64,000 bases of DNA. Source: Mumia quercus (GTDB taxonomy: Bacteria; Actinomycetota; Actinomycetes; Propionibacteriales; Nocardioidaceae). Position numbers and translations under genes: made by a program. A model generated the notes under the pieces. That model ran no database searches. It was not told the DNA's origin and saw only the letters and a list, made by a program, of their open reading frames with translations. The stretch is taken from positions 62,001-126,000 of the forward strand of contig NZ_JANZYO010000001.1 of NCBI RefSeq assembly GCF_025506335.1. The letters are read 5' to 3'. Positions 1-54,039 of the stretch are shown one piece after another. The stretch's first letter is position 1, and each line of letters begins with the position of its first letter.

Positions 1-627
1 GATCGTCGGGTCACCCTCGAGGGTCACCTGCTCGCCCGTCGACGTGATTCGTTGCTGGCCGGTCCGCGCGGTCCTGAGCACCTGGGTGACGAAGCTGTCG
101 GCCGTCGCGAACCTGCGGATCGCCGGCTCCCACGCGTTCGCCGGAGTGTCCTGCTCGAGATCGGGCGCGTACGAGGCGGTGAGCGCGGCCGCGGCGCAGA
201 GGTTCGCGCGGTCGTTCGTACGGACGTCCGTCGGGGCCAGCCCGGTGAGCGCGGCGCCGCGGTCGATCTCGCTCGTGGTCGCGGCCTTCGGAGCCGGATC
301 GCCCTTACCTGCGCCGTCCGGCACCGGGGCGGTGGTCGACTTGAGGTTGAACATGCCGTACCCGCCGTCGTTGCTCGCCTTGCCGCTGTGCCCCTCCCAG
401 CGCGACTGCATGTACGAGACGGAGCGCAGGAGGTCGGCGGGCACGTCGGCGGTGGCGGCCGCGGCGTCGAAGGCGGCGTCGAGGGTGGGCGCTGCGAGGA
501 CGGTGGAGCAGTCGACGTCGGGTCGGGCGAAGGTGGGTGAAGCCGAGACGAGCGAGGCTGGCAGAGCGGTCAGCAGCAAGGCCGACGCTCCTCCAGCCAC
601 GCCGACCCGGACTAAGGGAGTGCGCAT
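1..627 (-). CDS. Secreted peptidoglycan-hydrolase-like protein (C-terminus outside window)
   Basis: The reading frame is open to base 1, so the 3' part of the gene lies outside the window; 209 codons are visible. The ATG is preceded by an AAGGAG ribosome site. A Sec-type signal peptide (about residues 1-30, ending near VSASP) is followed by a lysozyme-like stretch, LLRSVSYMQSRW then GGYGMFNL at about residues 68-97. This resembles the N-terminal domain of actinobacterial secreted N-acetylmuramoyl-alanine amidases. In those proteins I recall Glu in the SYxESRW motif; here it is Gln, so this domain may bind rather than cut. A second catalytic domain may follow outside the window. The family assignment is inference from motif resemblance. 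Confidence 0.6.
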   Translation of the reverse strand, partial: MRTPLVRVGVAGGASALLLTALPASLVSASPTFARPDVDCSTVLAAPTLDAAFDAAAATADVPADLLRSVSYMQSRWEGHSGKASNDGGYGMFNLKSTTAPVPDGAGKGDPAPKAATTSEIDRGAALTGLAPTDVRTNDRANLCAAAALTASYAPDLEQDTPANAWEPAIRRFATADSFVTQVLRTARTGQQRITSTGEQVTLEGDPTI

Positions 628-7614: not shown

Positions 7615-8403
7615 TCAGGCGATCGCCTCACGCACCCGCCGGGTCATCGCCGCGAACTCCGCCGACGCACGCAGCTCGACAGGGTCGACGTCCGCAGACG
7701 CCGCGGCGAACGGCGCGGGCTCGTCGAAGACGATCCGCCCCGGACGCGGGCTCATCACGAGCACGCGTGACCCGAGCAGCACGGCCTCGTCAACACCGTG
7801 GGTGATGAAGAGGACGGTCTTGCCCGTCGTCCGCCACAGCGTGAGCAGCTCGGTCTGCAGCCGCTCGCGCGTGAGGGCGTCGAGGGCGCCGAACGGCTCG
7901 TCCATGAGCACGATGTCGGGGTCGTTCGCGAGCACCCGCGCGATCTGGGCGCGCTGCTGCATGCCGCCCGACAGCTCGTACGGCCGCCGGTCGGCGAAGT
8001 CGGTCAGACCCACCATCGCGAGGTACTCCTCGGCGCGTGCCGCACGCTCTGCCTTCGCGGCTCCGCGCAGCCGTGGCCCGAGCGCTACGTTGCCGCGGAC
8101 GTCGAGCCACGGATAGAGCGTCGGCTGCTGGAACACCACCCCGCGCTCGGCGCCCGGGCCGCGTACGGTGCGGTCGCCGACCGTGATCGTCCCCGACGAC
8201 GGACGCATGAATCCCGCGACGAGCCGCAGCAGCGTCGTCTTGCCGCAGCCGGACGGCCCGGCGAGCGTGACCAGCTCGCCGGGCTCGATGGTGAGGTCGA
8301 TCCGGTCGAGCGCGGGCACCGTGTCCCCGCGGGAGCCGAAGACGTGCTCGACTCCCGCCACGCGTACGGCGCCCGCGTGCGTACGGACCGACTCGAGCGT
8401 CAC
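7615..8403 (-). CDS. tauB: Sulfonate/taurine ABC transporter ATP-binding protein
   Basis: A 262-residue ABC ATPase of the SsuB/TauB group. Walker A is GPSGCGKTT, the Q-loop region is VVFQQPTLYPWLDVRGNV (Q and PWLD typical of this group), the signature is LSGGMQQRAQIARVLA, and Walker B is DIVLMDEPFGALDALTR with a downstream switch His in FITHGVDEA. The GTG start overlaps the stop of the binding-protein gene by four bases (GTGA), so it is the last gene of the permease-binding protein-ATPase operon. It should power uptake of sulfonates or a similar anion. Confidence 0.88.
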   Translation of the reverse strand: MTLESVRTHAGAVRVAGVEHVFGSRGDTVPALDRIDLTIEPGELVTLAGPSGCGKTTLLRLVAGFMRPSSGTITVGDRTVRGPGAERGVVFQQPTLYPWLDVRGNVALGPRLRGAAKAERAARAEEYLAMVGLTDFADRRPYELSGGMQQRAQIARVLANDPDIVLMDEPFGALDALTRERLQTELLTLWRTTGKTVLFITHGVDEAVLLGSRVLVMSPRPGRIVFDEPAPFAAASADVDPVELRASAEFAAMTRRVREAIA

Positions 8404-45809: not shown

Positions 45810-46817
45810 ATGACCAGCTGGCAGCCGGACGTGCTGGGCGTGGGGTACGAGCAGCACCGCATCGACCTCGGCGAAGACCCCGACGGCGAGGGCCGTATCG
45901 ACGCCACCCTCGTACGCCGGGTGCCGCAGCCCGGCGAGGTTGCCACCGGAGCGGTCCTGTACGTCCACGGCTTCAGCGACTACTTCTTCCAGACCGCGCT
46001 GGCCGACTTCTTCGCCGCGCGCGGCCTCGCCTTCTACGCGCTCGACCTGCGCAAGTGCGGTCGTTCCCTGCATCCGGGGCATACCGCGCACTTCGTCTCC
46101 GACCTCGCCTCGTACGACGTCGAGCTCGAGCAGGCGCTGGCGATCGTCCGCGCGGAGCAGGGCGGCGACGTCGTCCTCGCGGCGCACTCGACCGGCGGCC
46201 TGATCCTCCCGCTGTGGCTCGACCGACGTCGCCGCGCCGGCAAGCGTGAGGAAGACGTCGCGGGACTGGTGCTCAACAGCCCGTGGTTCGACCTCCAGGG
46301 CGCGCCGTACCTCCGCACGGTCGGCACCGAGGTCGTCAAGCTCGTCGGTCGCGTGAAGCCCACGACCGTGATCAAGCTGCCGCCGGGAGACGCGTACGGG
46401 TCGAGCCTGGCTGCGTCGCACTTCGGGGAGTGGGAGTTCAACACGGCGTGGAAGCCGGTCACCGGCTTCCCGGTGACCTTCGGCTGGCTGCGGGCGATCC
46501 GGCTCGGGCACGCGCGGCTCCACCGCGGGCTCGACGTCGGGGTGCCGTCGCTGGTGCTGCGCTCGTCGCGCAGCCACTTCACGTCGAGGTACTCCGAGGC
46601 CGTCGACGCCGCCGATGCCGTCCTCGACGTGCGGCAGATCGCACGCTGGGCGGGCTGCCTGGGTGGGGACACCCACGTCGTGCCGATCGAGGGGGCGCGG
46701 CACGACGTCTTCCTGTCGACCGAGGGACCGCGCAAGCGGGCGTACGAGGTCGTCGACGCGTGGCTGCGTCACGAGACGCACCTCGTCTCGGCTCCCCTGG
46801 AGACCCCCGCGCGATGA
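45810..46817 (+). CDS. Alpha/beta hydrolase (serine aminopeptidase S33 / lysophospholipase-like)
   Basis: A 335-residue cytosolic hydrolase behind AGAGGAGCACCG. AVLYVHGFSDYFFQTALADFFAARGLAFYALDLRKCGRS is the Hydrolase_4 oxyanion and strand region, and the nucleophile elbow is VLAAHSTGGLILPLWL (Ser). The acid and base lie near the C-terminus (PIEGARHDVFLS supplies His). Monoacylglycerol lipase-like enzymes share this layout. Its stop overlaps the start of the folate fusion gene (ATGA), so the two are co-translated, which is an odd pairing. The substrate is unknown. Confidence 0.85.
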   Translation: MTSWQPDVLGVGYEQHRIDLGEDPDGEGRIDATLVRRVPQPGEVATGAVLYVHGFSDYFFQTALADFFAARGLAFYALDLRKCGRSLHPGHTAHFVSDLASYDVELEQALAIVRAEQGGDVVLAAHSTGGLILPLWLDRRRRAGKREEDVAGLVLNSPWFDLQGAPYLRTVGTEVVKLVGRVKPTTVIKLPPGDAYGSSLAASHFGEWEFNTAWKPVTGFPVTFGWLRAIRLGHARLHRGLDVGVPSLVLRSSRSHFTSRYSEAVDAADAVLDVRQIARWAGCLGGDTHVVPIEGARHDVFLSTEGPRKRAYEVVDAWLRHETHLVSAPLETPAR

Positions 46818-49519
46818 CGGCACCCGCCGTCCGCCGGCGGGTCGGAGAGGTCGCGACCGGCACGCTGCTGCGTCGCCTGCGCGACCGGGAACGCCTGGTG
46901 GCGCTGGTCGGGTCGTGGGACGACGGGCACGACCTCGTCGCATACGACCCGGACAGCGTGCTCGGCGACGGCGAGGACCCGTTCGCGCTCGGGACCGGGC
47001 CGGACACCGACGGCGCCGCCGGCGGGACCGCGGCGGGCACCTGGGTCGGCTGGTGGGGCTACCCGCTCGGCGCCCGGCTCGAGGACATCGGCACGGCGCC
47101 GCCACGGCCGTACCCGCTACCCGCTGCCGACCTGGCACGCTACGACACCGTGCTGCGCCGCGGTGTCGACGGCGTGTGGTGGTTCGAGTCGGTGGCGGCG
47201 CCGGCGGAGGTCGAGCGACGTTGGCTCGAGCTCCGGGAGCTGCTCGACGGCGCAGACCCGCTCCCGGCCCCGTACGCGCTGGAGCCGTTCGTGGCCGTCC
47301 CCGGCCTCGAGGCCCACCGCGAGGCGGTGCGTCGCGCGATCGCGCACATCCACGCGGGCGACCTGTTCCAGGCCAACGTCTGCCTGCGGCTGGAGTCGCG
47401 GCTGAGCGGGGACCCGCTCGAGATGTTCGTCGCCGGCGTCGAGGCGCTGGGCCCGGCGTACGCGGCCTTCGTCGCCGGCCGTACGGGGACGGTCGTGAGC
47501 CTGTCGCCCGAGCTGTACGTGCGGCGGACCGGCGACCGGGTGGTGTCGTCGCCGATCAAGGGCACGGCTCCGGCCGACTCCGATCCCGCGGCGCTCGCGG
47601 CCTCGGTCAAGAATCGGGCCGAGAACGTGATGATCGTCGACCTGGTCCGCAACGACCTGGGCCGCGTGGCCCGTACCGGCACGGTCGAGGTCACCGCGAC
47701 CGCCGCTCCGCGGGCGCACACGGGTGTCTGGCACCTGGTCTCGGACGTCGAGGCGCGGCTCCTGCCGGGTGCCTCGGACGCCGACGTCCTGCGGGCGTCG
47801 TTCCCGCCCGGCTCGGTGACCGGTGCGCCGAAAGTGCGGGCGATGCAGGTGATCAACGCGCTCGAGGCCACGGGGCGCGAGGTCTACACGGGTGCGATCG
47901 GGTACGCGGGGCCGCGCGGGCTCGAGGCGAACGTCGCGATCCGGACCTTCGAGCTGCGTGGCGACCGGGTGTGGCTCGGGGTCGGCGGTGGCGTCGTCGC
48001 GGACTCCGACCCCGAGGACGAGCTGCGCGAGTGCTTCACCAAAGCGGCCCCGCTCCTGCGCGCCGTCGGCGGCGTCGTCGCAAACCCGCTGGTTGGTCGA
48101 GTAGCGGCGAGCCCTCTGGTTGGTCGAGTAGCGGCGAGCCCCCAGGTTGGTCGAGTAGCGGCGAGCCCCCAAGGGCGAGACGCGTATCGAGACCACACCC
48201 CCGCAACCCCGGATCCCGCGGCGGGGATCTTCGACACGCTCCTCGTCCGCGACGGTGACCCCGTCGACCTCGACGGGCACGTGACGCGGTTCGCCGGTGC
48301 CGCACGCACCACGTACGGCATCGCCCTCGACCCCGACGCGCTGGCCGTACGCGTGGCCGAGACCGCAGCCCCGCTCGCCGGCGCGCACCGCCTGCGTCTC
48401 ACGCTCGACCCCCGTACGGGCGCCGTCGACGTGACCGCCACGCCGGCCGGCGCCGTACCGTCCGACCCGTGGGTCCTGCGGCCCGTCGTCGTCCCCGGCG
48501 GTCTCGGCGACGCGAAGTGGTGCGACCGCACCGTCCTCGACGCGCTGCCGGGGGCGCCGTGGACCGCCACGCGCGACCCGCTGCTCGTCGACACCGACGG
48601 CAGCGTGCTCGAGACCGGGCGGGGCAACGTGTTCGCGGTGTTCGACGACGGTGTCCACACTCCGGCGCTCGACGGCCGGATCCTGCCCGGCGTGACGCGT
48701 GACGTGGTGCTCGGGCTGCTGCGCGAGCGCGCGGTCCCGGTGTACGAGCGTCGGATCGCCCTCGACGAGCTGGCCTGCGCGACCGAGCTCTTCGTGACCA
48801 ACGCGATCGGTCGCGTCCGCGCCGTCACCGAGGTCGAGGGGATCACGTGCCGCGCCCCCGGCCGTACGACGGCATGGCTGCGCGACCTCGACGCCTCGGC
48901 GCGACCGGTCACGACGAGCTCCGTGCCTCGCCCAAGGGCAGGCGCGCGGGTGCTGCTCATCGACAACTACGACTCGTTCGTGCACAACCTCGCGCAGTAC
49001 GTCCGCGAGCTCGGCGCGCAGGCCACCGTGGTCCGCAACGACGCCCTCGACGTCGAGGCGCTCGTGCGGAGGCGGCGCGCCGGCGACCTCACCCATCTCG
49101 TCATCTCGCCCGGGCCCGGAGCACCGTCCGACGCCGGCGTCAGCGTCGATGCCGTCAGAGCGCTCGGGGCGACCACGCCGGTGCTCGGGGTGTGCCTCGG
49201 GCACCAGGCGATCGGCGAGGCGTACGGGGCGCGGGTCGTACGGGCGCCGCGGCCGGTCCACGGGTCGCCTTCGCTGGTCCACCACGACGGCCGCGGCGTC
49301 TACACAGGGCTCGACGGCCCGCTGGTGGCGGCGCGCTACCACTCGCTCGTCGTCGAGGACCTGCCCGAGGCGCTGGAGCCGACCGCGTGGAACGCCGAGG
49401 GCGTCCTCATGGGGGTCCGTCACCGCGAGCACCCGGTCGAGGGCGTGCAGATCCACCCGGAGTCGATCCTCACGCCGCGCGGCCACGACCTCCTGGCGAA
49501 CTTCCTGTCCCCAAGGTGA
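46814..49519 (+). CDS. Three-domain p-aminobenzoate synthesis fusion: PabB-PabC-PabA
   Basis: A 901-residue protein that would convert chorismate to p-aminobenzoate for folate in one chain. Residues about 1-420 are PabB: FQANVCLRLESRL, SPIKGT with Lys249 (the PabB nucleophile, unlike TrpE), VIMIVDLVRNDLGR-type block and PGSVTGAPKVRAM. Residues about 465-690 are a PLP-fold 4-amino-4-deoxychorismate lyase (GIFDTLLVRDGDPVDLDGHVTRF, Lys in GDAKWCDR, ETGRGNVFAVFDDG, TNAIGRVRAV). Residues about 705-901 are the glutamine amidotransferase PabA (LLIDNYDSFVHNLAQYVRELG, Cys794 in VCLGHQAIG, HPES). Linker residues 426-452 are three copies of a 9-residue repeat from an inserted DNA repeat. Confidence 0.92.
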   Translation: MTAPAVRRRVGEVATGTLLRRLRDRERLVALVGSWDDGHDLVAYDPDSVLGDGEDPFALGTGPDTDGAAGGTAAGTWVGWWGYPLGARLEDIGTAPPRPYPLPAADLARYDTVLRRGVDGVWWFESVAAPAEVERRWLELRELLDGADPLPAPYALEPFVAVPGLEAHREAVRRAIAHIHAGDLFQANVCLRLESRLSGDPLEMFVAGVEALGPAYAAFVAGRTGTVVSLSPELYVRRTGDRVVSSPIKGTAPADSDPAALAASVKNRAENVMIVDLVRNDLGRVARTGTVEVTATAAPRAHTGVWHLVSDVEARLLPGASDADVLRASFPPGSVTGAPKVRAMQVINALEATGREVYTGAIGYAGPRGLEANVAIRTFELRGDRVWLGVGGGVVADSDPEDELRECFTKAAPLLRAVGGVVANPLVGRVAASPLVGRVAASPQVGRVAASPQGRDAYRDHTPATPDPAAGIFDTLLVRDGDPVDLDGHVTRFAGAARTTYGIALDPDALAVRVAETAAPLAGAHRLRLTLDPRTGAVDVTATPAGAVPSDPWVLRPVVVPGGLGDAKWCDRTVLDALPGAPWTATRDPLLVDTDGSVLETGRGNVFAVFDDGVHTPALDGRILPGVTRDVVLGLLRERAVPVYERRIALDELACATELFVTNAIGRVRAVTEVEGITCRAPGRTTAWLRDLDASARPVTTSSVPRPRAGARVLLIDNYDSFVHNLAQYVRELGAQATVVRNDALDVEALVRRRRAGDLTHLVISPGPGAPSDAGVSVDAVRALGATTPVLGVCLGHQAIGEAYGARVVRAPRPVHGSPSLVHHDGRGVYTGLDGPLVAARYHSLVVEDLPEALEPTAWNAEGVLMGVRHREHPVEGVQIHPESILTPRGHDLLANFLSPR
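48089..48196. repeat. Palindromic intergenic-type repeat inserted in-frame within the pab fusion
   Basis: Three tandem 27-base units (48089-48115, 48116-48142, 48143-48169), each containing GGTTGGTCGAGTAGCGGCGA, are followed by GCGTATCGAGACCA (48182-48195). TGGTC...GACCA ends and the TCGAGTAGC/TATCGAGA cores match the REP-like element I recall as abundant between genes in Nocardioides-type genomes. Here it encodes the linker between the PabB and PabC domains. Confidence 0.75.
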
Positions 49520-50152: not shown

Positions 50153-51505
50153 TCAGCCCGCGAAAAGCAAGAACAACCCGAGGAACGTGTACCCGACCAT
50201 CACCAGCATCAGCGCGAGCTGTCCGGTGAGGTGGTGCGCGCGCGGCAGGAGCCGGATGCACCGGTCGTGCGCTGCGATCACGCCGAGGACGTGGCCGGTC
50301 AGGACGAGCCCGACCTTGAGCACGCCGAGCAGGTGCGGGTGCTCGGACAGCCAGTACGACACCTCGAGGCTGCCCACCCCGAGGACGTCCCAGCCGCGGT
50401 CGAGCGGATCGGCGAGCGCGATGGCGGTGCGCTGGCCCTTCTCGACGAGGTACGTGAGGTAGTGCGCGCCGACGTAGCCGACGACGATCGGCACCAGCGA
50501 GTGGGCGAGCTCGCCCGGCATCGCGCGCCGCTGGACGCCGGTGAGCCCTCCGGTCGCGCGCGCGGCCAGCACGAACACCAGCGCGACCAGACCGATCATC
50601 GCGAGCAGCCCGAGCGTCCGGTACGCGACGCCGAGCGCGGGCGTACCGGCGTACCAGGACTGGACCTCCGTCAGCCACCACGAGGTGCCGGTGGTGGAGT
50701 CGAACGCAGTCGAGCCCAGGAGAACCGCGACGACGGCCACGATCCCGGCGTCGACGGGGAGGCCGGCGAGGTTCGAGAGCGGGTTGCGCAGCACGACCCG
50801 GCGGTCCTCGGGTGAGCGCCGCCCGAACGGCGAGAGCGCGGCCACGAACGCCGCGTACACGTCGAACGGGTCCGCCCGCTCGAACCACCGGCGGCCGAAG
50901 AGCAGGGCACCGACCACCCCGTACGCGAGGTAGCCGACGAGCCACACCCGGACCGTCGGCAGCGCACCCGGGTCTGGCGAGGCGAGCTCGGTCCAGACGA
51001 ACGCGAGCAGCCCCAGCGCGGCCGGCCAGTAGCCGAGGCGCGCGGGGTAGGTCCACACCCCGACAGCGGGGTCGCGGCGGAGGACCGCGCACGCGGCGCG
51101 GTGCAACGCGCGGGCGGGCGAGAGGGACGCCCAGACGTGGCCGCACAGCAGCGACAGCGGGACGATGCCGACCCACAGCAGGACGTAGAACGCGCCGGGG
51201 GCCCCGTTCGTGGGACCGGGCTCACCGCCGAACGCCGCGAGCGCGACCCACGCCGTGAACCCGACGCCGACCACGCCGAGGACCGCATGAGCCGCGCCGC
51301 TGTCGATCGTGCGGGCGACCCACGCCGGGAGTGCGACTCCCGGTGTGCTCGGGTCGAGCCGGGGGCGCCGCCACGCGAGCGCCAGCACGGCGAACGAGAC
51401 CGAGAGCGCCCATGCCGCGCCGACCATCGCGTACTCCAGGGGTACGGGGAGGTCGGTGGAGCCGCCGACGCCGTGGGCGAGGACGACGTCGTCGCGCAGG
51501 GTCAT
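50153..51505 (-). CDS. Polytopic membrane protein, last gene of four-gene membrane operon
   Basis: A 450-residue protein with about ten to eleven membrane helices. Conserved-looking features include PLSLLCGHVWASLSPARALHR, GRRWFERADPFDVYAAFVAALSPFGRR, the His-containing ELAHSLVPIVVGYVGAHYLTYLVEKGQR and a C-terminal GHVLGVIAAHDRCIRLLPRAHHLTGQL. I recall similar proteins being labelled fenitrothion hydrolase, but no hydrolase motif is visible and that label is doubtful. Buried His/Asp pairs would suit metal or electron handling. Its ATG overlaps the lipoprotein stop (ATGA). Confidence 0.7.
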   Translation of the reverse strand: MTLRDDVVLAHGVGGSTDLPVPLEYAMVGAAWALSVSFAVLALAWRRPRLDPSTPGVALPAWVARTIDSGAAHAVLGVVGVGFTAWVALAAFGGEPGPTNGAPGAFYVLLWVGIVPLSLLCGHVWASLSPARALHRAACAVLRRDPAVGVWTYPARLGYWPAALGLLAFVWTELASPDPGALPTVRVWLVGYLAYGVVGALLFGRRWFERADPFDVYAAFVAALSPFGRRSPEDRRVVLRNPLSNLAGLPVDAGIVAVVAVLLGSTAFDSTTGTSWWLTEVQSWYAGTPALGVAYRTLGLLAMIGLVALVFVLAARATGGLTGVQRRAMPGELAHSLVPIVVGYVGAHYLTYLVEKGQRTAIALADPLDRGWDVLGVGSLEVSYWLSEHPHLLGVLKVGLVLTGHVLGVIAAHDRCIRLLPRAHHLTGQLALMLVMVGYTFLGLFLLFAG

Positions 51506-51945
51506 GGCCGGACGTCGATCGTGGCGATCGTCCCCCCGACCTCGTGCGACTCCAGCGAGACGCTCCCCGGGACGTCGACCTCGAACGTGAACGACTGCGT
51601 GCCCGCCTCGACCTCGAAGGTCTCCTCGGGCTCGGCGTGCAGGTGGAGCTCGTCCTCGGTGTCGGAGGTGACGTCCACCGTGATCGTCTCGCCGACCTTC
51701 GCCTCGTGCGCCTCGCCGAGCGGGCGCACCTGGCCCTTGGCGATGCTGACGACGATGACGAGCCCTTCGGCGTCGATCGTGGGCGTGGCGGAGGGCGGCG
51801 GGGTGTCGGCGGTCGTCGACGGCGCAGGGGTGGAAGGCTCCACCTCGGCAGCGTTCGTGACGTCGGTGGCCGGGTCCTGCGCACAGCCGGTGAGCGCGAG
51901 CAACCCGATGATGGCGAGGGCGGCGAGCGTACGGGGCGGGGTCAT
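51502..51945 (-). CDS. Cupredoxin-like lipoprotein
   Basis: A 147-residue lipoprotein. The signal ends at LALTGC (Cys about residue 21), then a Pro/Thr/Ser tether of about 35 residues. The C-terminal 90 residues, GLVIVVSIAKGQVRPLGEAHEAKVGETITVDVTSDTEDELHLHAEPEETFEVEAGTQSFTFEVDVPGSVSLESHEVGGTIATIDV, follow the cupredoxin strand order. HLHAEP and SLESHE are the usual metal-side positions, though no Cys/Met ligand set is complete. It is coupled on both sides by ATGA overlaps. It is possibly a copper-handling or assembly factor. Confidence 0.65.
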   Translation of the reverse strand: MTPPRTLAALAIIGLLALTGCAQDPATDVTNAAEVEPSTPAPSTTADTPPPSATPTIDAEGLVIVVSIAKGQVRPLGEAHEAKVGETITVDVTSDTEDELHLHAEPEETFEVEAGTQSFTFEVDVPGSVSLESHEVGGTIATIDVRP

Positions 51946-52157
51946 CGGTCGTCCTCCTGGACGGTCGGATCGGTGGTGGCGTCGCGGACCCCGCTCTCGT
52001 CGGCGGTCTGCTCGGCGAGCTCGCGTGCCTCGGCCATCCTGTCGCGCTTGGCGATCACGAGGACCACCACCGTGATCGCGATCGCCGGGACGAACGCCGG
52101 GATCGTGAGCAGCAACGGGTGGTGCGCGAGGAGCACCAGGTCAGGAGACATCGTCAC
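51942..52157 (-). CDS. Small single-helix membrane protein
   Basis: A 71-residue protein with one strongly hydrophobic segment (LLAHHPLLLTIPAFVPAIAITVVVLVIAKRD) and an acidic cytosolic tail (MAEARELAEQTADESGVRDATTD). The GTG start overlaps the stop of the large membrane gene (GTGA), and its stop overlaps the lipoprotein start (ATGA). It is probably a structural subunit of a membrane complex with its neighbours. I do not recognise the family. Confidence 0.7.
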   Translation of the reverse strand: MTMSPDLVLLAHHPLLLTIPAFVPAIAITVVVLVIAKRDRMAEARELAEQTADESGVRDATTDPTVQEDDR

Positions 52158-54004
52158 ACGAGGGCCGGCGGCCGGTCACCGGCGCGCCGGTCTGCCGGTG
52201 TGCTGCGCGGCGTGGCGCGGGCGACGCGGGCCACGCCCCACGCCAGCGCCCAGATCAGCAGCAGCGAGCAGATCGCCACGACGGTGCAGCCGGCGTTCCA
52301 CAGCCACGTGGGATGGTCGGCGTTCTTCTCGCGCTGGAGGATCGAGGTCTCCGGCACGAAGTCGCGGGTGAACGTCGCCGGCGCGGCCAGCTCGTCGGCG
52401 CCGATCGCCGGGTCGGCAGGCATCCAGATCGGGACGGCCGCGAGGATCCGGTCGTCCGCGACCCGGATCAACGTCTTCCAGCTGCCGTGGACCGGGATCG
52501 GTCGCGTCGTCTCCCAGACCCCTGGTGACGTCTCGCGCAGCCGGTCGACGACCACTCCCTCGCCTCCGCCCTGCCACGCGGTGATCTGGACCCAGGTCGG
52601 GTCGTCGCTGGGCAGGTCGGCAGGGTCGAAGGTGACGCGAGCCTCGACCGTACGGGTGGCGGGGTCGGCGTCGACGTCGGTGAGGACGACCGTGGCGCTG
52701 GCGTCGGGGACGGTCGCGTACAGGCCGTTGCCGAGCGACACGGAGACGGCGACGACGCCCGCCACGACGACCGTGCGGCACACCGCCTTGCCGGGGATCT
52801 CGCCGGTCGTGAGCGCCGTCCCGAACAGCGCGCCGGCCATGCCGGCGAGGACGCCGACGGGCACCGACATCAGGAGACCCTCGCCCCACATGTCGGGCGT
52901 CCAGGGGAGGACGAACGCCGCCTGCACCCAGAGGCCCTCGAGGGCGAGCCCGACGGTCGAGAGCCCGAGGCCCGCCACGGCCCCGTACAGGAGAGGACGT
53001 CGGGCGAGCGGTCGGACCAGCGCCAGCAGCTCGACGACGACCGCGGTGCCGAGGTAGATCGGGAAGACGTTGTACGCCTCGCCCAGGACCGGGCCGACGA
53101 TGACCGCGGTGCCGATCCGTACGGCGAGGTAGAACAGCACGGCGAGGACCGCTCCCCATGCCCCGAGCACGCGCCGTGCGGCGACCAGGGCGAGGCCGGC
53201 TGCGGCCGCGATCATCATCGGGTGCAAGGGCTGCCGGAACTGCTGGATGCCGAAGTCGTACTCGACCTGGAAGACCGACAGCCCGACGAGGAGACCGCCG
53301 AACGCGGCGGTGTAGGAGATCCGTACCCGCAGCTCGCGCAGCGGCGCCCTCGTCTTGCCCTGGGCGAGGTCGCCCTCGCGCAGGAGCGTGAGGATGCCGA
53401 CGAGCGACAGCCCCGCGCCGCCGATGAGCATGAGGTGGGTGGGCCCCCACAGCGTGACGTCCTGGCCGAAGATGCGGTGCCAGACGTCGTCGAGCGGGAA
53501 GCCGATGAGCGCGTACAGGCCGGAGCCGGCGACCAGCAGGCCGCCGACCGGCGCGTGCCAGGTGCGGGTGATCTTCACCGCCGCCGGACCGGGGACCTCC
53601 CCGCGGGGCAGCACCATCGCCGTCGCGCCGGCGATGAAGGTGAGGAAGAGACCGACCAGGATGAAGTAGTGCGCGGGGTTGGCGAGCGGCCCCTCGTCCC
53701 GCCCGACGCCGGCGTGCAGGCTGACGTCCCAGATGAACCCGAGGAACGCGGTGAGCAGCGCGACCGCGAGCATCCCGCCGGGGACCGCCACCCATCCGGG
53801 GCGTCCGAGGCGCTGCTCGGCGTGGTCGCTGAGGCGCTGAAGCCATGCGATGCGTCCGGTGCGGTGCGCCCAGGCGACCCACAGGAGTGCGGCGAAGACG
53901 ACTGCGGACGCGACCGACATGCCGACGACCTGGTCGAGCGCGGCGCCACCGGCCGGCCGCTCCTCGACGGCGAGCGGGAGGGCGTACGAAGGGTGGGCGG
54001 CCAT
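52154..54004 (-). CDS. Large polytopic membrane protein with an extracytoplasmic Ig-like domain
   Basis: A 616-residue protein with about twelve to fourteen membrane helices: an N-terminal set (SVASAVVFAALLWVAWAHRTG), a central set and one C-terminal helix (WNAGCTVVAICSLLLIWALAWGVARVA). Conserved-looking loops include FLGFIWDVSLHAGVGRDEGPLANPAHYFI and PLDDVWHRIFGQDVTLWGPTHLMLIGGAG, with several membrane-edge His residues. About 110 residues before the last helix form a beta-rich domain (VEARVTFDPADLPSDDPTWVQITAWQGG). ATG 54004 was chosen; a start at 54040 would lie within the operator. It is the first gene of four coupled genes. Function is unknown. Confidence 0.75.
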   Translation of the reverse strand: MAAHPSYALPLAVEERPAGGAALDQVVGMSVASAVVFAALLWVAWAHRTGRIAWLQRLSDHAEQRLGRPGWVAVPGGMLAVALLTAFLGFIWDVSLHAGVGRDEGPLANPAHYFILVGLFLTFIAGATAMVLPRGEVPGPAAVKITRTWHAPVGGLLVAGSGLYALIGFPLDDVWHRIFGQDVTLWGPTHLMLIGGAGLSLVGILTLLREGDLAQGKTRAPLRELRVRISYTAAFGGLLVGLSVFQVEYDFGIQQFRQPLHPMMIAAAAGLALVAARRVLGAWGAVLAVLFYLAVRIGTAVIVGPVLGEAYNVFPIYLGTAVVVELLALVRPLARRPLLYGAVAGLGLSTVGLALEGLWVQAAFVLPWTPDMWGEGLLMSVPVGVLAGMAGALFGTALTTGEIPGKAVCRTVVVAGVVAVSVSLGNGLYATVPDASATVVLTDVDADPATRTVEARVTFDPADLPSDDPTWVQITAWQGGGEGVVVDRLRETSPGVWETTRPIPVHGSWKTLIRVADDRILAAVPIWMPADPAIGADELAAPATFTRDFVPETSILQREKNADHPTWLWNAGCTVVAICSLLLIWALAWGVARVARATPRSTPADRRAGDRPPALV

Positions 54005-54013
54005 GCGTCGGAG

Positions 54014-54039
54014 TGTGACATCGGCAATGTCACATGTCA
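54014..54039. promoter_or_regulatory. Operator-like inverted repeat before the membrane operon
   Basis: TGTGACAT (54014-54021) and ATGTCACA (54027-54034) are perfect 8-bp arms around CGGCA; a further ATGTCA follows at 54034-54039. It lies 10 bases upstream of the operon's first ATG, overlapping the likely promoter. Confidence 0.6.

Follow-up and report, generated by a model that had tools for sequence, protein, structure and literature searches.

Which copper centre of the methane and ammonia monooxygenases does the chemistry has been debated for a long time, and these enzymes are hard to express; PmoB carries the CuB cupredoxin. In actinobacteria, the operon of the hydrocarbon/butane monooxygenase, a particulate copper membrane monooxygenase (CuMMO), goes by the name hmo. 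For the particulate methane monooxygenase (pMMO), the part of PMC12576850 covered here gives PmoC Asp156, His160 and His173 as the ligands of CuC, with Arg165 among the nearby residues, and PmoC Asn227, His231 and His245 as those of CuD. The extended operon of pMMO and of the ammonia monooxygenase (AMO) is pmoCAB-pmoD-copC-copD, according to the covered part of PMC6189053. Here we analyse four open reading frames, g1 to g4, all present on the minus strand at positions 50153-54004 of a 64,000-nucleotide stretch of Mumia quercus (contig NZ_JANZYO010000001.1, positions 62,001 to 126,000), the whole of which is called the window. The original prediction, made from the letters of this DNA, had described a coupled membrane and lipoprotein operon with a hint of copper or electron handling. 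We consider it probable that g1 is a deep-branching, single-chain relative of the CuMMOs, and that the operon encodes a copper-dependent membrane oxygenase together with copper-handling helpers. The copper hint is supported, as g1 carries both copper-ligand signatures of PmoC; the relation to copper membrane monooxygenases had gone unrecognised. The four genes are the following:

52154..54004, minus strand: g1, 616 residues from ATG, single-chain CuMMO-like membrane protein (PmoC-like part, PmoA-like part, beta domain and last helix)
51942..52157, minus strand: g2, 71 residues from GTG, HmoD-like single-helix protein (alignment of 22 sequences and g2 profile search)
51502..51945, minus strand: g3, 147 residues, lipoprotein with lipobox LTGC, invariant H-x-H and near-invariant E-x-H, presumed copper-binding (alignment of 30 sequences)
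50153..51505, minus strand: g4, 450 residues, multi-helix protein that pairs with g3 and occurs beside CuMMO operons as well

An alternative upstream TTG start would extend g1 to 628 residues. Within g1, the putative metal sites and domains are placed as follows, with both sites lying in order within the N-terminal third of the protein:

53669..53728, minus strand: CuC-like site D93-x3-H97-x4-R102-D103-x6-P110-x-H112, invariant in 84 sequences (PmoC ligands from PMC12576850)
53435..53491, minus strand: CuD-like site D172-x3-H176-x2-F179-x2-D182-x5-P188-x-H190, invariant in 84 sequences (PmoC ligands from PMC12576850)
53339..54004, minus strand: PmoC-like domain, residues 1-222 (AlphaFold on this part alone, predicted local distance difference test (pLDDT) 86.9; PmoC chains in VIA-align and Foldseek; profile P 2e-5)
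52715..53359, minus strand: PmoA-like helices, residues 216-430, called from structure only (VIA-align, 6cxh_B)
52346..52711, minus strand: beta domain, residues 432-553, with no invariant His (DSSP of the model and conservation), presumably extracytoplasmic
52214..52309, minus strand: predicted last transmembrane helix, residues 566-597 (model)

The 84 relatives of g1 used for conservation were hand-picked from the loci available, and one conservation count omitted the partial sequence L012. Two stretches are invariant among them, W92-D93-x3-H97-x3-G101-R102-D103-x-G-P-x3-P110-x-H112 and D172-D173-x-W175-H176-R-x-F179-G-x-D182-V-T-x-W-G-P188-T-H190. Aligned actinobacterial PmoC sequences read D-x3-H-x4-R-D-x4-P-x-H and N-x3-H-x2-F-x2-E-x5-P-x-H, so that the first site of g1 equals that of PmoC with an insertion of two residues, while the second is ungapped, with Asn replaced by Asp. 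In terms of ligands, D93, H97 and H112 take the places of the CuC motif D-x3-H-x12-H with an H-x14-H spacing, and D172, H176 and H190 take those of the CuD motif N-x3-H-x13-H at the same spacing. A pattern of both sites, 60-95 residues apart, was written after the alignment was seen; it occurred in 108 of 8142 open frames, many of which come from loci collected because of g1, and these were 104 g1-type frames and 4 HmoC, with 0 in five shuffled sets. Applied to eight PmoC/AmoC sequences, it found both sites in four (all actinobacterial), CuC alone in three and neither in one. Three short relatives of g1 in one family (L199-L201; 343-378 codons, no beta domain) have the exact H-x12-H of PmoC at the first site; these genes (L199:4735-5856, L200:1-1029 and L201:4786-5919) are possible intermediate forms.

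Homology of the N-terminal part of g1 to PmoC is well supported at the level of sequence profiles. By hhalign, 26 diverse g1 N-domains aligned with 8 diverse PmoC/AmoC sequences in register over 113 columns (probability 77%, P 2e-5, score 43.1). None of 400 block-shuffled decoys reached 43.1, the best scoring 34.2, and the controls gave 15.7 (reversed), 22.2 (PmoA), 15.9 (PmoB) and 13.6 (g4). A search of PDB sequences with g1 gave no result, and nothing was found by a single-sequence PmoC scan of viral contigs or by an AmoC search of phages. PF02461, PF04744 and PF04896 (A, B and C subunits) had no match in g1-g4. The AmoC and AMO profiles found nothing in the own genome, in a search where the AMO control matched nowhere and PF04744 was not included genome-wide. 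A further alignment (A8), which excluded ten rows, nine of them derived from plasmids, remained unused.

AlphaFold predicted the full g1 with a mean pLDDT of 90.0 and a predicted template modelling score (pTM) of 0.90. When the full model was compared with 996 PDB chains by VIA-align, the top two matches were PmoA and the next row fell to Z 6.7. These two are 3rfr_B (Z 13.2, root-mean-square deviation (rmsd) 6.3, 186 of 242 aligned), presumably PmoA given that 3rfr_J is named so and three chains share the same sequence, and the A subunit chain 6cxh_B (Z 12.9, rmsd 3.9, 180 of 241 aligned, model 216..601). The structural match suggests a PmoA-like identity for residues 216-430. For residues 1-222, nine PmoC/AmoC entries stood among the 50 listed; the best was 7s4h_C (Z 10.0, rmsd 4.6, 176 aligned, model 22..222 on chain 89..278), for which Foldseek gave a probability of 0.99, template modelling scores of 0.55/0.52 and E 0.11. 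The beta domain (432-553) matched generic beta sandwiches in VIA-align. No convincing row came from the viral fold library, families outside this library staying possible. Applied to g1, the positive-inside rule would place the two metal sites, like the beta domain, outside the cytoplasm.

Several described systems resemble this locus in part. The hmoCABD operon of Mycolicibacterium chubuense NBB4 and its relatives shares with it the CuC and CuD signatures, carried there by HmoC, a small HmoD-type helix adjoining the enzyme genes, and a g3-g4 pair nearby. On the hmoCABD plasmids, however, PmoA, PmoB and PmoC are separate, whereas g1 is one chain that reaches no Pfam or NCBIfam cut-off and shows no CuB. 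Fusion of the C and A subunits seems to have occurred in a recognised CuMMO too, because a genome of the same family as that of the window (G008) has an ordinary CuMMO in which PmoC and PmoA form one open frame of 551 codons (L323:9604-11256; PmoC part 45-289, PmoA part 294-534), followed by pmoB and an HmoD-type gene. The pmoCAB-pmoD-copC-copD operon, as given in the covered part of PMC6189053, likewise has an oxygenase, a small membrane helix, an exported copper-binding protein and a multi-helix protein in the same order, but g2 is without the PmoD cysteines, g4 has no CopD match and g3 is a lipoprotein with a different ligand pattern. Very divergent CuMMO lineages are described for Angelarchaeales and Syntropharchaeia in the covered parts of PMC9038741 and PMC12533140; in Angelarchaeales, each of A, B, C and X has its own gene (order C-A-X-B), in contrast to the one chain of g1. 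Among the matches listed from the open-access literature on fused or divergent CuMMO-like proteins and on actinobacterial CuMMOs, none describes the g1 family, an absence that is no proof; neither do PMC6215863 and PMC10030591 in the parts covered. As g1 matches none of the A, B and C profiles and no CuB was seen, we file it as CuMMO-like and not as a proven CuMMO.

The helper genes also have counterparts beside CuMMOs. Judged by its sequence, g2 is a relative of HmoD, which is encoded after pmoB in the CuMMO operons of actinobacteria: it has a single helix, an N-terminal His motif and sequence similarity. Searched against 1767 frames from CuMMO-bearing or neighbouring loci, the g2 profile ranked first the frame right after pmoB in G008 (E 5.3e-5), second the HmoD of M. 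chubuense NBB4 (0.037) and fourth that of Rhodococcus ZPP (0.052), and hhalign aligned g2 with HmoD over 22 columns (P 8e-5). We rejected g2 as a PmoD/AmoD, given that it has no Cys and that none is conserved among the 22 aligned sequences. In g3, residues S94, D95, H101, H103, G127 and E132 are invariant, and H134 is almost so, in an alignment of 30 sequences that includes two fragments. The cupredoxin-like nature once proposed for g3 is suggested by a pattern of conserved H-x-H, PG and E-x-H; g3 found no match near significance in Pfam, NCBIfam or PDB sequences. The pair g3-g4 lies within about 10 kb of the CuMMO genes in all four actinobacterial CuMMO plasmids found, and about 4 kb from the CuMMO of G008; in three further CuMMO contigs (L320-L322), two of them under 7 kb, the stretch covered does not hold the pair. 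Two names for g4 were rejected. CopD (PF05425) had no Pfam match and an hhalign probability of 0.2, and a CopD exists elsewhere in the genome; for fenitrothion hydrolase, the literature search gave one unrelated paper. Distant relatives of g4 occur in a haloarchaeon and an alphaproteobacterium (L059, L060) in unrelated gene neighbourhoods.

One genome collection holds at least 569 relatives of g1, and the locus counts below concern the best 80 of them, so that adjacency counts hold for the nearer relatives; the closest among these 80 are Mumia genomes. The coupling of the four genes rests on three 4-base overlaps:

52154..52157, minus strand: g1/g2 stop-start overlap GTGA
51942..51945, minus strand: g2/g3 stop-start overlap ATGA
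51502..51505, minus strand: g3/g4 stop-start overlap ATGA

An in-frame ATG lies two codons downstream of the GTG of g2, and its use would remove the first overlap. Counting only loci where both genes could be delimited, the g1/g2 overlap recurs in 40 of the 42 related loci that have g2 downstream (in another 12, g2 precedes g1), the g2/g3 overlap in 32 of 40 (with g2 upstream in 11 more) and the g3/g4 overlap in 60 of 63. This recurrence indicates that the overlaps are not due to chance. The coupled four-gene operon with three overlaps is thus real and its coupling recurs in related genera, while the added claim that the proteins are made in fixed proportion goes beyond what overlaps alone can show. 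That g1-g4 form one envelope complex is plausible.

Among the 80 loci, g4 is present in 76, g3 in 74 and g2 in 51, with g2 upstream of g1 in 12 of 54; three of the four loci without g4 stop soon after g1 (L105, L141 and L142) and one does not (L137). Farther away the arrangement loosens: of seven distant loci where g1 stands alone or has moved away (L174-L180), only L178 has g4 on the stretch, and in L183 and L184 it is about 1 and 3.4 kb from g1. After g1 in L175 there is a small single-helix frame with a 4-base overlap, not detected by the g2 profile, that matches the post-pmoB protein of G008 at 46% over 39 residues. The original prediction had named scattered homologues as evidence against an operon; in the nearer relatives the operon is conserved, but distant g1 genes often stand apart from g3-g4. 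In 58 relatives, g1 and g4 occur together in 21, g1 only in 1 (G030, 81% complete), g4 only in 19 and neither in 17 (Fisher p 4e-4, uncorrected for kinship). Away from g1, g3 comes before g4 in 15 of 20 g4 loci. A sample of Actinomycetota contained g1 in 43 of 396 genomes (28 of 237 genera) and the rarer AmoC family in 3 of the same 396. On a plasmid of Mycolicibacterium vanbaalenii JOB5 (L061; NZ_CP126903.1 232034-233710), g1 and a g3-g4 pair are about 8 kb apart. The one plasmid record that carries g1 annotates it as a hypothetical protein. A candidate split C-only gene in G284 was rejected, as the contig simply ends there.

Just upstream of g1 we found a palindromic site, which ends nine bases before the start codon:

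54014..54034, no strand assigned: operator-like site TGTGACA-N7-TGTCACA

In its own genome this site occurs exactly once, at g1, and with one mismatch twice, 4.6 kb apart on another contig (L319:3625-3645 and 8194-8214). Both one-mismatch sites lie inside a beta-oxidation cluster with genes for an enoyl-CoA hydratase/3-hydroxyacyl-CoA dehydrogenase, a thiolase, an acyl-CoA dehydrogenase, a CoA-transferase, two alpha/beta hydrolases and a MerR regulator, and point to a candidate lipid regulon to which the g1 operon would also belong. In all five genus members that have g1, the site stands before this gene with no more than one mismatch; G004, without g1, has only one other operator-like site. 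Versions with at least 11 of the 14 fixed bases, a level reached by 0.3% of background windows, precede g1 in 14 of 79 loci (12 named Aeromicrobium or Actinomycetes and 2 Mumia); in the remaining 65, most of them mycobacterial, rhodococcal or nocardial, fewer than 11 bases agree. In G016, a MerR gene divergent from g1 is related to the MerR of the beta-oxidation cluster (28% over 230), and no operator-like site was found at g1 there. Binding of the cluster MerR to the site is conjecture. The site common to the two gene groups hints at a lipid or hydrocarbon as the substrate.

We propose that g1 would unite in one chain a C-like subunit, an A-like subunit and a beta domain, keeping the intramembrane metal sites CuC and CuD of PmoC at the extracytoplasmic face, with g2 as the small HmoD-type helix of the complex. 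The H-x-H lipoprotein g3 and the multi-helix g4 would form a pair, present near true CuMMO operons too, that supplies copper or electrons. Such a complex would bind copper, use O2 and hydroxylate a membrane-soluble lipid or hydrocarbon, the product entering beta-oxidation under a MerR-type regulator. The copper content, oxygenase activity, substrate, regulator and physical complex are those that we infer.

Several observations weigh against this proposal. None of g1-g4 reaches a cut-off in Pfam or NCBIfam, Foldseek returned nothing at E <= 0.001 for either the full g1 or residues 1-222, and the comparison of PmoA and PmoB profiles with the middle and end of g1 gave no sequence support. In VIA-align, helical models may reach Z 13-14 by arrangement alone, so that the weight of the PmoA match rests on the gap to the next row; a designed soluble helix bundle (8tn1_A) scored Z 10.2 against residues 1-222, level with PmoC, so that the PmoC-like fold alone is not decisive. 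The narrow PmoC sets gave weak hhalign values (P 0.0095, 0.0075 and 0.03-0.07), and the P 2e-5 alignment stops at H176, taking in the whole first site but only two of the three second-site ligands; H190 is in register with PmoC only in the weaker narrow-set alignment (P 0.0095). The Asn of the CuD-like site is Asp in g1, which also shows no CuB histidine brace, its beta domain lacking an invariant His in 84 sequences. As to the helpers, the g2 profile reached the HmoD of strain PH-06 only at E 3.9, six of the ten plasmid neighbourhoods of g4 viewed (out of 54 matching records) showed no CuMMO, and no g2, g3 or g4 was detected near g1 in fourteen divergent loci (L199-L212).

These points have to be set against other explanations of the same genes. 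It is unlikely, in our judgement, that g1 shares its ancestry with PmoC and PmoA without being an oxygenase, the four proteins forming an envelope complex for metal uptake, storage or sensing in which the PmoC-type sites merely hold metal. That g1 shows no CuB site agrees with this, as do the 19 of 58 relatives that have g4 without g1 (at least one of which, G008, has a CuMMO), the separate g3-g4 pairs in 15 of 20 loci, and one plasmid with g3-g4 near CopC and a metal-sensitive regulator; on these grounds, g3-g4 may have a general metal role. An enzyme is nevertheless the better fit to the conserved R102/D103 beside both full ligand sets, to the HmoD-type subunit and to the operator-like site common with beta-oxidation genes, and no copper gene was seen around the other two such sites. 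Convergence, by which g1 would be a multi-helix membrane protein of a generic kind, unrelated to CuMMOs, whose two D-x3-H...H sites hold metal or heme, appears very improbable: sequence identity is low, narrow profiles are not significant and helical bundles reach moderate Z against a wide range of proteins, but the diverse profiles align in register with no decoy as good, the other half of g1 has PmoA as its top structural match, and accessory genes are common to the g1 cluster and CuMMO operons. The electron-handling idea of the original prediction, a cupredoxin-fed envelope electron-transfer complex with g1 and g4 anchoring a redox lipoprotein, we regard as improbable; it would account for the coupled genes and for the H-x-H and E-x-H of the lipoprotein, whereas no family of heme, flavin or Fe-S proteins came up in Pfam or NCBIfam and g1 has PmoC-type sites.

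A broader form of the oxygenase reading is that g1 represents a CuMMO superfamily branch that has so far gone unnoticed and occurs in about one tenth of the sampled Actinomycetota genomes, with C and A fused, CuB absent and CuC and CuD kept, acting as a lipid or hydrocarbon oxygenase that feeds beta-oxidation; we hold this with slightly more doubt than confidence. If true, a single-chain relative that keeps CuC and CuD and shows no CuB in culturable soil actinobacteria would make the question of the copper centre testable, and a natural single-chain copper oxygenase would show which copper sites the chemistry needs. As the g1 family is commoner than the recognised CuMMOs in the sampled genomes, a widespread oxidation capacity of mycobacteria, rhodococci and their relatives may be unannotated.

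Around the operon, the flanking frames of the 80 loci (n=714) include recurring families that are each confined to a subset of loci. The largest family besides the g3-overlapping frames is mixed and recurs in 15 of 80 loci, most of them Mycolicibacterium, with Gordonia L149 at about 35% identity; it includes enoyl-CoA hydratase frames, one member in L114 (11584-12450) matching Pfam ECH_1. Such neighbours fit the beta-oxidation link but were given no weight, because these genes are common. The operon is flanked here by a divergent two-component system, an MMPL gene and a VTT gene, which were found again in L071 and L072 (Mumia) but in no other of the 80 loci. Finally, the window holds at 46283-49519 a long open frame with a linker of repeated VGRVAASP units, the translation of which, as we take it, resembles parts of para-aminobenzoate synthase fused together.

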